Shown piece by piece: positions 49,526 to 55,824 of a DNA stretch of 64,000 nt. The notes beneath the pieces were generated by a model that was not told where the DNA came from, did no database searches, and saw only the letters and a list, made by a program, of their open reading frames with translations. The stretch comes from Herbidospora galbida (lineage in GTDB: Bacteria > Actinomycetota > Actinomycetes > Streptosporangiales > Streptosporangiaceae): the NCBI RefSeq assembly GCF_005233835.1, contig NZ_SZQA01000001.1, positions 124,001-188,000 on the forward strand, written 5' to 3'. How positions within the stretch are numbered: the stretch's first letter is position 1; each line of letters starts with the position of its first letter. Both the position numbers and the translations under genes were made by a program.

Positions 49526-49850
49526 GTGAACGGACCCCGCGTCGGCTAGGCCCGCAGCTCCACCGACGAGCAGGACGTCGTGATCCGGACCCAGCAACTC
49601 CTGACCCTCGGCGTCCCCGAAGACCGCACCTACATCGACCGCGGCTTCTCCGGCACCACCCGCCGCAACCGCGCCAGCCTCGACCAGGCCCTCGCCGCCG
49701 TCTGGAATGGGTCGGTGTTCACGGTCACCAAGTTCGACCGGTTCGCTCGCAACATGGCCGAGGCCAACGAGATCCTCCCGACCTGTCCGGACGGGGCGTC
49801 CTGTTCGGACTCGGCGGCTCCGTCTACGTGAGGGAACCCAGAAGGGGTGT
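49526..49850 (+). pseudogene. Serine recombinase/resolvase, nonsense and frameshift mutated
   Basis: From GTG 49526 the frame reads VNGPRVG-stop-ARSSTDEQD; the TAG at 49547-49549 replaces the tyrosine of the usual GYARxST active-site strand, with the catalytic serine just after. It continues TYIDRGFSGTTRRNRASLDQ and VTKFDRFARNMAEANEI. Near 49788 the frame shifts (the other frame gives GRGVLFGLGGSVYV) and the rest is missing. Confidence 0.78.
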
Positions 49851-50671: not shown

Positions 50672-51418
50672 ATGGACCTTCCCCGTATCTTCACCATCCG
50701 TGAAAGCAGCCACCGGATCCACAACCCGCTGACGGCGGACAAACTCGCCGCCTTGGGCGCGTCGCTTCACCTCGCCGCCGGCACACGGGCGCTCGACCTG
50801 GCCAGCGGCTCTGGCGAGCTGTTGTGCACCTGGGCGCGTGACCACGGGATCATGGGCACCGGGGTCGACATCAGCACGGTCTTCACCCGGCGGGCCCAGG
50901 CCCGCGCCGCCGAACTCAGCGTCGCCGACCGAGTCGAGTTCGTCCACGGTGACGCCGCCGGTCATGTCGCGGACCAGCCGGTCGACCTGGCCGCCTGTGT
51001 CGGCGCCACGTGGATCGGCGACGGCGTCGCCGGAACGATTGAGCTGCTCGACCGCAGCCTGAGGCCCGGCGGACTGATGTTGATCGGCCACCCGTTCTGG
51101 CGGCGGACCCCTCCGGACGAGGAGACCGCCAAGGCGTGCCACGCCACCTCCATCGCGGAATTCGTGCTCCTCCCTGAACTGATCGAGCAGTTCCAGGAGC
51201 TGGGGTACGACGTCGTGGAGATGATGCTGGCCGATCAGGACAGCTGGGATCGCTACGCTGCGGCCCAGTGGCTCAACCTGCGCCGCTGGCTCGACCAGAA
51301 CCCGGACGACGAACTCGCCCCCGAAGTACGGGAAGAACTCAACACCGAGCCCGTTCAGTACACACGTTATGGGCGTGAATATCTGAGCTGGGGGGTCTTC
51401 GCCCTCATGAAGCGGTGA
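50672..51418 (+). CDS. Class I SAM-dependent methyltransferase
   Basis: 248 aa. Motif I ALDLASGSGELLCTWA, acidic loop GVDISTVFTRRAQARAAELS and motif IV-like VDLAACVGATWIGD show the Rossmann methyltransferase fold. A long C-terminal helix region (WDRYAAAQWLNLRRWLDQNP) is typical of small-molecule methyltransferases. AAAGGAA precedes the ATG. Followed by a strong terminator hairpin. Confidence 0.88.
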   Translation: MDLPRIFTIRESSHRIHNPLTADKLAALGASLHLAAGTRALDLASGSGELLCTWARDHGIMGTGVDISTVFTRRAQARAAELSVADRVEFVHGDAAGHVADQPVDLAACVGATWIGDGVAGTIELLDRSLRPGGLMLIGHPFWRRTPPDEETAKACHATSIAEFVLLPELIEQFQELGYDVVEMMLADQDSWDRYAAAQWLNLRRWLDQNPDDELAPEVREELNTEPVQYTRYGREYLSWGVFALMKR

Positions 51419-51700: not shown

Positions 51701-53626
51701 CTACTTCGGGTTGGTGGCGCTCTTCGTGCGTGAGCGGGTGTTCAGTCCCATTCCGGTCGCGTTCGGATTGACGTACGGCGCCGGGGCCGGTTTCGGCTGG
51801 AACTCGATCTTCACCTTCTTCTGAACGGACGTGCCGGAGTCGGTCGGCCGAGGCCGTTTGACCGTCGCCTTCTTCTTCGGTGGTGCCTTCAGCTGGGTGC
51901 CCGGCGGGACCTTGGCCTGCCAGAGGGTGAGGGGCGGCGCGTCATCGGCCTCGTCGCCGCTTGAGTCGTAGCCGGTCTGATGGTCGCCGCCGCCGGTGGC
52001 GCTGGTCGTGATGCCGGTGATGACGGCGTTGCGGCCTTCTGGGGTCTTCACCGCCTCCAGCAGCAGCCGTTCGTCCTTGGACGGGTTGGCCTTCTCGTTG
52101 AGGCCGAGGAAGGCCGTCAGGATTTCGGGGTCGGTGAGCGCCTCGCCGGCGGGCCACGCGTAGGTCCTGAAGTGGGTGCCGGACGCGGTCAGCGGGAGGC
52201 CGTCGTCGTTCATCGTCTTGAGCATGCGCCAGCAGTGGAAGCAGCACAGTTTGGAGATGCCGATGGCGATCTCGGCCTCTCGGATCCGGCGTTTGATCGC
52301 CTCGATCCTGATCTCCCGTTCCGCTTCGGAGAGGCCGCCGTCGGTCTGCACGGCGCGGAGTTCCTCCTTGCGCTGGCGGTAGGCCGCGTCGGCCGCCCGC
52401 GTCTCGGCGTGCACCTTCGTCTCGTCCGGCGGCGCGTCGTAGTGGCCGACATGGGCGACGACCTGCATGTTCTTCCAGTCCTGCTGCATCTGCGAGAGGA
52501 AGGAGATGGTCTTCCTGAGCCGACGTTCCGCCCTGGCCAGCTGGTCGGGCCTGATGCCGCCCTTGCGGACCTCCAGGCCACCGGCCACCATCTCGTCGTA
52601 CAGCGCGGAGGTCTCCTGGGCCATCTGGTTGGCGGCGCCTTCTGCGGCGGAGATCAGCCGGAAGAAGTCGGTGTCCATGTCGGCGTCGGGTCTGTTGGCG
52701 AACAGGTGCACGTCCTCCAGTTTGGAGACCGCCACGGCGACGCATTCGCGGGTCGTCTTCAGGTTGAACAGGACCCAGGCGAGCCGATCGAGCTGCCGCT
52801 GCCGTTTCAGGTCGGCGGGCAGGGCCCGGCGGGCTGCGATCGTGCCGCCGGTGCTTTCGCGCTCGCGTTTGATCAGTACGTCGATCTGGCGCCGGACCGC
52901 TTGGACGATCTTGTCGTGGCCGGTGCGGTCGGGTGCGGTGAACTCCGCCGACGGGTCGCCGAAGAGGACACGCCTGCCGAGGGCGCGTTCGAAGCCCTCC
53001 ATGTCGCCGCCGGTGGCGACGATCATCTCCGTGACGACCTCGTTCGTGGCGGTGTCGTAGGTGCTGTGGTGGTCGACCATGGCGTTGGCCAGAACTTCGT
53101 TCCACGACCCGTCTTCGATGCCGAAGATCCGGGCCAGCGCGATCCCGGCGGTGTCCCGGACCGACAGCGGCAGTCCCATGGTCTTGGTGACGATGTCGTC
53201 GGCCCAGGAGTCGGCGGTGATGTCCTGGATCTGACTGAGCCAGGCGACCATGCCGTCGACGCTCAGCAGGTCGTTGACGCCGAGTTTCGCCTTGATCCTC
53301 TGGGCGAAGGCGTTGTCCTCGGCCATCTCGTTGACCAGGTCGGTGTACTCCCACGCGGCGAGACTGAGCAGCTCGGGGTCGGAAGCGCCGCCGCTGCCGC
53401 CGTCGTTGACGTTGTCGTTGTCGGCGGTGGAGATGACGCGCGGCTTCGCCTGCGGCGTGGCGAACCGGGGCTCCTTCGCCTTGCTCGGCGGTAACCCGCC
53501 GACGCCCTGCTCCGAATCCCCCTCGGAGTCCAACTGGCCGGACGACCGGTGGTGCTTGGAAGCCGACGTCTTCGTGTTCGTGGACCTGCTTTTCTCCTTG
53601 GTCCGCTTCTTCTTCTTGAACGCCAT
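51701..53626 (-). CDS. Large protein with a cytidine-deaminase-like (OTT_1508-like) domain
   Basis: 641 aa from ATG 53626 (GGGAG upstream). N-terminus strongly basic (MAFKKKKRTKEKSRS), then a helical region to about 390. Residues 400-490 carry H406-A-E408 (VHAETRAADAAYRQRK) and, after a helical insertion, C461-C462-x2-C465 in IGISKLCCFHCWRMLK. HAE plus CxxC is the zinc and catalytic signature of the deaminase fold; the ISKLCC form resembles the OTT_1508-like group (family from memory). The tail has KKK and KRPRP clusters. No signal peptide, secretion marker or immunity gene is obvious. Target (nucleotide, RNA or DNA) unknown. Confidence 0.65.
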   Translation of the reverse strand: MAFKKKKRTKEKSRSTNTKTSASKHHRSSGQLDSEGDSEQGVGGLPPSKAKEPRFATPQAKPRVISTADNDNVNDGGSGGASDPELLSLAAWEYTDLVNEMAEDNAFAQRIKAKLGVNDLLSVDGMVAWLSQIQDITADSWADDIVTKTMGLPLSVRDTAGIALARIFGIEDGSWNEVLANAMVDHHSTYDTATNEVVTEMIVATGGDMEGFERALGRRVLFGDPSAEFTAPDRTGHDKIVQAVRRQIDVLIKRERESTGGTIAARRALPADLKRQRQLDRLAWVLFNLKTTRECVAVAVSKLEDVHLFANRPDADMDTDFFRLISAAEGAANQMAQETSALYDEMVAGGLEVRKGGIRPDQLARAERRLRKTISFLSQMQQDWKNMQVVAHVGHYDAPPDETKVHAETRAADAAYRQRKEELRAVQTDGGLSEAEREIRIEAIKRRIREAEIAIGISKLCCFHCWRMLKTMNDDGLPLTASGTHFRTYAWPAGEALTDPEILTAFLGLNEKANPSKDERLLLEAVKTPEGRNAVITGITTSATGGGDHQTGYDSSGDEADDAPPLTLWQAKVPPGTQLKAPPKKKATVKRPRPTDSGTSVQKKVKIEFQPKPAPAPYVNPNATGMGLNTRSRTKSATNPK

Positions 53627-54270: not shown

Positions 54271-55824
54271 GTGACATTGATGCGTACTCTCAGCTCAGCC
54301 GTTTTCAGCTTGGCAATAGTCATCGCAGGGGCCGCGCCGGCGGATGCGGCCTCGCAGGATGTCGTACGGACCGATACGGGTCAGGTGCGAGGCGAGGTCG
54401 CCCGGGACCACCGGATCTTCCAGGGCATCCCCTACGCCGCTTCTCCCGTCGGCGACCTGCGCTGGCAGTCGCCCCATCCGGTGACCGCCTGGCGTGGTGT
54501 CCGCGCCGCGACACGCCCCGGCGACAGGTGTGCCCAGTCCACGGATCTGTGGGGGTTGCCGGCCGGCGACAGCGAGGACTGCCTCTACCTCAACGTGACC
54601 GCCCCGCGCTCGGCCACTCCGCGCCGCCCTAGGCCCGTCATGGTCTGGTTGCACGGCGGCAGCCTGACGAAGGGGGCCGGCAGCGACTACGACGCCACCC
54701 GCCTGGCCACGCGCGGCGACGTCGTGGTGGTCACCGTAAACTACCGGCTTGGCGTGTTCGGCTTCTTCGGGCATCCCGGACTGGCGGGCAGCGGGGCCTA
54801 CGGGCTGGAGGACCAGCAGGCGGCATTGCGCTGGGTCCAGCGCAACATCGCGGCCTTCGGAGGCGACCCACGCAACGTCACGTTGTTCGGGGAGTCCGCC
54901 GGAGCGCAGTCGGTGTGCGCCCAGCTGGCATCGCCCACCGCCGCCGGCCTCTTCCACCGGGCGATCACCCAAAGCACGTTCTGCTCCCAGACCGCCTTCA
55001 CCGGCAGCCGCCTGAGGCCGGTCGTGGACCTCCCGATGTGGGTTCCCAAGGCCGCCCACGAGGCGCACGGAACCACCACCGCCACCGCGCTCGGCTGTAC
55101 CGATCCGAAGACAGCCGTCACCTGCCTGCGCGGCCAGCCCGTCTCCAAGCTCCTCGCGCAGGAGCCGCTCGCCCTTCCGGGCTACGGCAACGCCGTACTG
55201 CCTGCCGATCCCGAGGCTGTCTTCGCGCAGGGCCGCTTCCACCGCGTGCCGATCCTCACCGGCATCACCCGTGACGAGGGGACCCTGTTCACCGCGCTGA
55301 TCTTCCCCGGTCTCGCCGAGCAGGAATACCAGAAGGGCCTGCGGGACATCTTCGGTGACAACGCCGCGGCGATCGCGGCGAAATACCCGTCCCGTGGACG
55401 GCCGACGCAAGCCGTAGCGGCGATCATGAGCGATCTCGACTGGGCGTGGGCCGGTCGTGCCAGTGACCGAATGCTCAGTGAGCACACCCCGGTCTACTCC
55501 TACGGGTTCGCCGACCGTACCGCCCCGCCGATCTTCCCCCTTCCCGGTGGCGTGGAGCCGCTCGCCTCGCACGGATCGGAGCTGTCGTTCCTGTTCCCCG
55601 GCACCCCGCTCACCCGCGAGCAGCGGAAACTCGGCGACATGATGATCACATACTGGTCGCGCTTCGCGGCGACTGGTGACCCCAACGCGCCTGGCCTGCC
55701 GCGCTGGAAGCCCGTGCGCACCGGGCACGTCCATCGCCTGGCCCCGGGACCCGGTGGCGTCGGCGTCTACGATCAGGACGCCCTCCACAAACTGGGTTTC
55801 TGGGACCGCCTGGCCGGCCACTGA
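54271..55824 (+). CDS. Secreted type B carboxylesterase
   Basis: 517 aa from GTG 54271 (ATG 54280 is equally possible). Sec signal MRTLSSAVFSLAIVIAGAAP, then ADA. Alpha/beta hydrolase of the carboxylesterase/cholinesterase type: oxyanion loop VWLHGGSL, nucleophile GESAGA, PVGDLRWQ and SEDCLYLNV near the N-terminus, and the His region with LASHGSELSFLFPG. It should cleave carboxylic esters outside the cell. Confidence 0.92.
   Translation: MTLMRTLSSAVFSLAIVIAGAAPADAASQDVVRTDTGQVRGEVARDHRIFQGIPYAASPVGDLRWQSPHPVTAWRGVRAATRPGDRCAQSTDLWGLPAGDSEDCLYLNVTAPRSATPRRPRPVMVWLHGGSLTKGAGSDYDATRLATRGDVVVVTVNYRLGVFGFFGHPGLAGSGAYGLEDQQAALRWVQRNIAAFGGDPRNVTLFGESAGAQSVCAQLASPTAAGLFHRAITQSTFCSQTAFTGSRLRPVVDLPMWVPKAAHEAHGTTTATALGCTDPKTAVTCLRGQPVSKLLAQEPLALPGYGNAVLPADPEAVFAQGRFHRVPILTGITRDEGTLFTALIFPGLAEQEYQKGLRDIFGDNAAAIAAKYPSRGRPTQAVAAIMSDLDWAWAGRASDRMLSEHTPVYSYGFADRTAPPIFPLPGGVEPLASHGSELSFLFPGTPLTREQRKLGDMMITYWSRFAATGDPNAPGLPRWKPVRTGHVHRLAPGPGGVGVYDQDALHKLGFWDRLAGH

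Follow-up and report, generated by a model that had tools for sequence, protein, structure and literature searches.

The 64,000-nucleotide stretch of Herbidospora galbida DNA analyzed here (the window; contig NZ_SZQA01000001.1, positions 124,001 to 188,000) encodes a 641-aa protein with the zinc-site motifs of a deaminase, and raises the question of what this protein acts on and in which cell. An initial annotation, made from the sequence letters, had proposed a nucleic-acid deaminase acting in conflict, defense or mutagenesis. With confidence little better than even, we favor the reading that the product of the window gene is an enzyme delivered as a free-standing effector by an injection system that resembles Tc toxins and lacks the TcB-TcC cocoon. 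The evidence for this comes from relatives of the gene that lie directly behind genes for TcA, and from a lysine-rich leader of the kind carried by unrelated proteins encoded behind TcA.

A deaminase-like protein with basic ends

The open frame was verified at the coordinates and length first given (51701..53626, 641 aa); the strand, which had been left out, is minus, with the ATG at 53626 and the stop at 51701-51703. A codon-usage gene caller, trained on the window and further loci, chose the same frame and the same start. The protein has a computed mass of 70 kDa and an isoelectric point (pI) of 7.2, and both ends are rich in Lys and Arg, as had been described. Its parts are as follows.

51701..53626, minus strand: OTT_1508-like deaminase family gene, 641 aa, from codon usage and a PF14441 match; ATG start at 53626
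53537..53626, minus strand: Lys-rich N-terminal leader, residues 1-30 (MAFKKKKRTKEK...), with eight Lys in residues 2-31; predicted to be disordered
52757..53383, minus strand: helical N-terminal region, residues about 82-290, without a significant fold match
51992..52756, minus strand: deaminase-like domain, residues about 291-545, from the PF14441 match and a domain model
52403..52411, minus strand: HAE, residues 406-408, at the start of a predicted helix and located in alignments
52232..52246, minus strand: CCFHC (CCxxC), residues 461-465, after a predicted strand and at a helix start, located in alignments
51950..51970, minus strand: Y-x-S-S-x-x-E motif, residues 553-559, conserved in alignments
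51704..51904, minus strand: basic, largely disordered C-terminal tail, residues 575-641, from sequence and predicted structure; possibly a nucleic-acid-binding or nuclear-import segment

The motifs H406-A-E408 and C461-C462-x2-C465 are present at the residues originally reported, and their conservation in homologues, a check named beforehand, was borne out. In an alignment of the window protein with 12 relatives (13 rows) H406, E408, C461, C462 and C465 do not vary, and A407 is replaced in a single row, by V. Also invariant in this alignment are D280-R-L-A, R293, C295-V, F309-A-N, R368-R-L, K372-T, S458-K, H485 and Y489, and likewise the Y-x-S-S-x-x-E motif near the C-terminus; H406, E408, C461, C462, C465, H485 and Y489 are still invariant in 23 rows, down to 20% identity to the window protein. 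A more distant Nonomuraea relative has HTE for HAE and SCxxC for CCxxC, so that C462 and C465, and not C461, form the conserved pair and are the likely zinc ligands. This pair fits the HXEXnCXXC center of the fungal OTT_1508-like deaminases (OLD), which are reported, in the portion of the paper available, to edit A to I in mRNA (PMC12754623).

PF14441 (OTT_1508_deam) is the sole Pfam match of the window protein at E<=1. It scores 26.0 bits on the whole protein (residues 406-491), below the gathering cut-off of 27, 29.7 bits in a genome search and 27.8 bits once the domain is excised; of the family's 23 domain sequences, 21 match it at E<=0.01, and the TcA-linked relative in Nonomuraea exceeds the cut-off with 30.5 bits. 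A search of the window protein against NCBIfam returned no matches. Together with motif conservation, the profile matches, that of the excised domain being just over the cut-off, support assigning the protein to the OTT_1508-like deaminase family, PF14441, as the initial annotation had suggested.

The full-length structural model has a mean predicted local distance difference test (pLDDT) score of 73 and a predicted template-modeling (pTM) score of 0.58, with pLDDT below 50 for most of residues 1-81 and for most of the stretch beyond about residue 588; a model of residues 270-578 is better (pLDDT 80, pTM 0.79). In domain numbering, a strand hairpin (27-32 and 36-41) is followed by a helical stretch, HAE opens a helix (138-158), and CCxxC opens another (194-205) behind a strand (184-188). 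Foldseek and VIA-align comparisons of the predicted structures with the PDB gave no solved deaminase among the matches, and because of this we infer the deaminase fold only from sequence and motif placement. The same comparisons, and the sub-threshold score of the whole protein, would fit a protein whose likeness to PF14441 is confined to the motif and whose zinc is structural. We regard such a non-deaminase as very improbable, given the scores of the excised domain, of most family sequences and of the Nonomuraea member, and given that HAE at a helix start and CCxxC at a helix start directly after a strand is what we take to be the placement in the deaminase fold.

The Y-x-S-S-x-x-E motif behind the domain is kept in most of the family, often as GYxSSxDE, and presumably resembles an acidic kinase site.

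Relatives encoded behind TcA genes

Relatives of the window gene lie 14 bp behind very large genes in three genera, the gaps being measured from called ATG starts. In H. sakaeratensis (G004:C13) and an Acrocarpospora genome (G110:C16) the upstream gene codes for 3624 or 3645 aa, and in Nonomuraea gerenzanensis (L127) for 4362 aa. The scanned part of the H. sakaeratensis gene (2908 aa) matches PF18276 (284 bits), PF20220, PF18413 and hemopexin repeats, from which we identify it as TcA, the translocon subunit of Tc toxins. The upstream gene of G110:C16 matches PF18276 at 305 bits, and BLAST aligns the Nonomuraea gene with the H. sakaeratensis TcA at 41% identity over 2051 residues and 50% over 1132. 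The Nonomuraea record, NZ_LT559118.1, is circular, 11.85 Mb long and filed as a plasmid in PLSDB; its size suggests a chromosome.

TcA and the deaminase family also occur in the same genomes. Among 200 genomes of the taxonomic family, 13 have the deaminase, 41 have TcA and 12 have both, and PF18276 is found in 12 of the 13 deaminase-bearing genomes.

In a tree of the deaminase family, rooted by midpoint and with the rooting unsure, the window protein pairs with a protein of A. corrugata (97/96). The TcA-linked members of Herbidospora and Acrocarpospora form a nine-row clade (95/95) with the copies of a neighborhood common to Herbidospora genomes, and other dispersed copies form a 13-row clade (100/100) on a long branch. 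These three join at one unresolved fork, and the TcA-linked member of Nonomuraea falls outside, together with one very long row. TcA-linked ancestry followed by dispersal is one simple account of this tree, and repeated capture is another.

A promoter-like element, TTGACG-N17-GCATNCT, has four distinct sites in 2.57 Mb (both strands), all of them before TcA or deaminase genes (L079, L080, L025 and L026), two of each; the pattern was picked after the fact.

TcA groups and matches to the cocoon subunit TcB

TcA C-termini from 16 loci fall into two groups of 12 and four rows (support 100/100; midpoint root, with long branches within the four-row group). The TcAs of the deaminase pairs are all in the 12-row group, within which the type of the next gene varies; the TcAs of two deaminase pairs have as their sister branch (98/97) one with a cargo family of unknown type (L122), and the Nonomuraea pair stands apart.

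The TcB model PF12256 matches on the TcA contig for two of the four-row group (G056:C82 and G033:C44), whereas contigs of the 12-row group in 13 genomes gave no match to PF12256 or SpvB, Nonomuraea (G674) having been searched for SpvB only. The SpvB searches of G110 and G674 were likewise empty. Strong SpvB matches (328-390 bits) are found only in G033, G056 and G084. Weak ones (at most 46.6 bits) are present in all seven Herbidospora genomes, off the TcA contigs; those of the window-gene genome lie on C40 (32.2 bits) and C24 (26.7 bits), whereas its TcA contig is C73. PF12256 has no match in the window-gene genome and a weak one in one of the seven Herbidospora genomes.

Cargo genes and lysine-rich leaders

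The gene next to TcA was examined at 43 loci, from 34 of the 41 family genomes with TcA and N. gerenzanensis; one locus at a contig end (L158) was dropped. Thirty-seven of these loci score above 350 bits against the C-terminus of the H. sakaeratensis TcA and make up what we call the cocoon-less group; 12 of them are in the TcA tree, and for the further genomes the cocoon-less status was assigned by this score. For 30 of the 37 the next gene is on the same strand as TcA; its type varies among deaminase, HExxH, HopA1-like and unknown.

Most of these next genes have a lysine-rich start. With starts extended upstream as far as the TcA stop, a leader of at least four Lys in residues 2-31 is found in 25 of the 30; the caller's starts place 27 next genes no more than 350 bp away, of which 21 have such a leader. 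The background is 2 of 488, counted over the remaining genes at the deaminase and TcA loci initially examined, and the comparison is to be read with the start extension applied to next genes only, with close relatives among the 30 (seven Herbidospora loci at one site) and with a background drawn from fewer genomes than the next-gene set. At the other end, 20 of 27 deaminase family rows have at least four Lys in the last 20 residues, compared to 4 of the 488 background genes; the window protein has fewer there.

The window protein begins MAFKKKK, and a HopA1-like protein of the TcA cluster in the same genome begins MAFKKKR. The DNA around the two starts matches at 89% over 27 columns, and other pairs of Lys-rich starts match over similar lengths. 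This cluster, behind the TcA on G000:C73, includes HExxH metallopeptidase-like and HopA1-like genes. The initial annotation recognized no secretion marker, and this now seems doubtful: the Lys-rich N-terminus may be such a marker, because leaders of this kind are found on stand-alone proteins behind TcA, and in three cases a relative of the window protein is itself linked to TcA.

The C73 cluster (L108:9654-16183) codes for four related HExxH-type proteins, one with a degenerate motif, and one HopA1-like protein, most with basic leaders, and looks like an effector island. The HExxH assignment is our reading of the motif, the Pfam matches being weak. The HopA1-like protein has no Pfam match of its own and takes its name from homologues that exceed the 22.7-bit cut-off (L118, 26.9 bits; L148, 37.5 bits). 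Of the HopA1-like places away from TcA, nine were read; seven of these have a basic N-terminus at a hand-chosen start and four have at least four Lys, while two of the nine need a TTG start and are Arg-rich. The cargo proteins at TcA range from 34 to 66 kDa where computed, and up to 971 aa, with a pI of at least 8 in 4 of 23 proteins of TcA-adjacent families. Eight loci with cocoon-less-group TcAs (L132, L134, L137, L138, L140, L141, L145 and L153) have stand-alone proteins of 662-971 aa behind TcA with no Pfam match at E<=0.1, which are possible new toxin domains.

The same contig bears on an alternative in which the window protein is an effector sent against bacteria or eukaryotes by another route, such as a contractile injection system, type VII secretion or lysis, and the TcA link is incidental. 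A contractile-sheath gene is present on the TcA contig about 70 kb away, and stand-alone effectors with disordered N-termini are typical of contractile injection systems. Among these routes the search covered contractile sheaths, however, and their genes are found in two of the seven Herbidospora genomes, whereas the deaminase family is in all seven, and the 14-bp gap to TcA in three genera also speaks against such a route, which we consider improbable.

A proposed route into target cells

In the Tc-like reading that we favor, the leader would bring the window protein to the TcA channel, encoded elsewhere in the genome on contig C73, and the window copy would be a dispersed member of the family acting in trans. 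The protein would then be transferred into a target cell. A eukaryotic cell is the probable target, since eukaryotes are what known Tc translocons act on and the cargoes found alongside are similar to HopA1 and HExxH effectors. In that cell the zinc site would deaminate nucleic-acid bases. The base would be adenine if the fungal OLD editors are a guide, or else cytosine, and the basic C-terminal tail would aid nucleic-acid binding or nuclear import.

Several features are reminiscent of Tc (ABC) toxins: the linked TcAs have the usual domains, and varied enzymes are found behind one type of translocon. The differences are that no TcB was found on the searched contigs of the 12-row group and that the cargo has a gene of its own and a Lys-rich leader. 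According to the available portion of one report, the known Tc system passes only cargo of positive net charge, and HVR128, the N-terminal part of the toxic region in the constructs made there, is strongly basic (PMC6868009); if our model holds, the leader would do locally what overall charge does there. Orphan TcC cargo is also known, such as YenC3 of Yersinia entomophaga, whose gene lies away from the translocon locus and which can join the complex (PMC11067744, in the text available); these are TcC proteins with an Rhs shell, whereas the window protein has none. The HopA1 effector family (PF17914) is an otherwise unrelated family that provides an alternative cargo behind related TcAs, with the same kind of leader in the same position.

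A number of observations weigh against the Tc-like reading, beginning with the PDB comparisons given above. TcA adjoins only 3 of 28 deaminase loci and the window locus is not among them (the window, L022-L034, ten Acrocarpospora loci, L078, L127, L129 and L130, with duplicates removed and some cut by contig ends; TcA was sought by BLAST in L055-L077, L125 and L127-L130 and judged from the gene list in L022-L034, with PF18276 places agreeing). The single PF18276 match of the window-gene genome (303 bits) is on contig C73 and not beside the window gene, neither the window gene nor the TcA of the same genome has the promoter-like element, and the window protein does not belong to the clade that holds the TcA-linked members of Herbidospora and Acrocarpospora. 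At genus level TcA and the deaminase coincide weakly, with TcA in three of four deaminase genera and in 21 of 68 genera overall; G071 matches the deaminase weakly and has no TcA. The window protein is a stand-alone protein of 641 aa, not the C-terminal part of an Rhs-type TcC, and at 70 kDa and a pI of 7.2 it breaks the rule for known Tc cargo, which is about 20-35 kDa with a pI of 8 or more in the portion of PMC6868009 available. The pI is below 8 in 19 of the 27 deaminase family rows, some of them partial, and only 14 of the 27 have at least four Lys in residues 2-31 with the caller's starts; the Lys-rich ends could be simple nuclear-import or nucleic-acid-binding segments. Finally, the 12-row-group TcAs look to lack a TcB cocoon by the PF12256 and SpvB searches, no search with a TcC or Rhs model having been made, and the distant SpvB-like proteins of Herbidospora could in principle serve as one.

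The domain itself shares with the OTT_1508-like deaminases, including fungal OLD, the HxE...CxxC arrangement with a G-x-S-K-x-C-C-x-x-C block. The window family differs from them in the helices inserted between the strand hairpin and HAE, the helical N-terminal region and the Lys-rich leader, and in place of the ZAO transcription factor of fungal OLD there is the TcA linkage of three actinobacterial relatives. This kinship is the starting point for the principal alternative, that the window protein is an intracellular RNA or DNA editor serving the cell's own regulation or anti-phage defense, like fungal OLD-ZAO, with tails that bind nucleic acid. The fungal OLD proteins act within their own cell, no known secretion signal is recognized in the window protein, and the family occupies one to four places per genome, with one neighborhood having a copy in all seven Herbidospora genomes (truncated in one and displaced in another). 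Nevertheless, PADLOC models gave no family at E<=0.1 for the three members scanned, the window protein included, no conserved partner gene is seen outside the syntenic neighborhood and the TcA pairs, and an intracellular role leaves unexplained both the TcA linkage in three genera and the leaders like those of unrelated effector-like proteins. We therefore regard such an editor as unlikely, if the most serious of the alternatives. The earlier proposal of a role in conflict or defense stands in its first part, conflict being the likeliest reading, but intracellular defense is without support from the PADLOC scan.

More tentatively, and short of an even chance in our judgment, these loci would define a new class of Tc toxin, in which a TcA without the TcB-TcC cocoon is served by interchangeable Lys-leader enzymes, encoded beside TcA or scattered, one of them a nucleic-acid deaminase of the fungal-editor type. 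If so, that deaminase would be an injected base editor of host RNA or DNA. Tc-type injection would need no cocoon, and the choice of cargo would come down to a short leader on a free-standing enzyme, which is much simpler than the known rule. Injected effectors would then include a bacterial relative of the fungal A-to-I mRNA editors, a point that matters for the question whether the editing enzymes of eukaryotes are descended from conflict proteins of bacteria.

No report of a TcA that lacks TcB and has stand-alone cargo with a leader was found in the open literature in PubMed Central (PMC); this scope excludes subscription papers and preprints, and a prior description is possible. In the portions of text available, a large survey of Tc loci describes orphan TcC proteins and its main text has neither 'Actinobacteria' nor 'Streptomyces' (PMC7861908), a survey of polymorphic toxins has neither 'OTT_1508' nor 'HopA1' (PMC3482391), and a paper that deals with an insect toxin of Streptomyces names Tc toxins only for other bacteria (PMC13171429).

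Distribution of the family

The setting, in which the initial annotation held that such a deaminase would be new, is not unique, with relatives in all seven Herbidospora genomes examined. With the 13-row alignment as query, 13 of 200 genomes of the taxonomic family (4 of 68 genera; up to six candidates scored per genome) and 13 of 249 genomes of the order (5 of 57 genera; up to five candidates per genome) have matches, and PF14441 is found in 2 of 396 genomes of the phylum, one of them the window-gene genome. A profile scan of genome contigs gave 23 loci, of which Herbidospora and Acrocarpospora account for 21; the other two lie in one Gammaproteobacteria and one Legionellales metagenome-assembled genome (MAG). 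The first MAG protein aligns with the domain profile across HAE and the GISK-CCxxC block at a probability of 97.5%. Bacterial OTT_1508 systems are reported in fewer than 0.5% of bacterial genomes, in the part of the paper available (PMC13327615).

The one to four places per genome come from protein searches, and the window-gene genome has two copies. Relatives are present in one common neighborhood of all seven Herbidospora genomes, where the copy of the window-gene genome sits between NUDIX and TetR genes and that of H. cretacea is shifted by a gene or two. The H. yilanensis copy there is truncated (L031, G006:C30:111000-130999) and H. solisilvae has tandem, partly incomplete copies (L026, G005:C1:971000-990999). 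These truncated and tandem copies are a sign of rapid turnover at the neighborhood. They would also fit a selfish or decaying gene whose copies move and degrade, with the window copy being without present function, as would the resolvase fragment near the window copy; but the window frame is intact, with a strong coding signal and all of the family-invariant residues, and we hold such decay to be very unlikely.

Genes around the window copy and further observations

The setting was initially described as mobile-element debris, and this holds for an 83-aa resolvase fragment, whereas nine of ten scanned neighbors match ordinary gene families. The ten are an aldehyde dehydrogenase, an SDR protein, a TetR protein, a SnoaL protein, an XRE-type regulator, the resolvase fragment, a methyltransferase, a carboxylesterase, a sigma factor and a beta-lactamase family protein. 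Three of them are listed here.

49580..49831, plus strand: resolvase N-terminal fragment, 83 aa (PF00239)
50672..51418, plus strand: methyltransferase-domain gene, with no sign of linkage to the window gene
54271..55824, plus strand: carboxylesterase-family gene, with no sign of linkage to the window gene

No immunity-like gene is recognized among these neighbors, in agreement with the initial annotation, and the non-syntenic loci of relatives have no partner gene in common except TcA, though novel immunity families could escape such a comparison.

The two MAG proteins (L076 and L077) share HAE and the G-x-SK-x-CCxxC block. In another family of the class, a PF14441 match lies within a 6338-aa open frame (L125, G327:C1:993440-993664), and the architecture is different. 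At one locus of Acrocarpospora corrugata (L061), two deaminase copies are near Macro-DUF6508, Clp_N and nSTAND1-WD40 genes.

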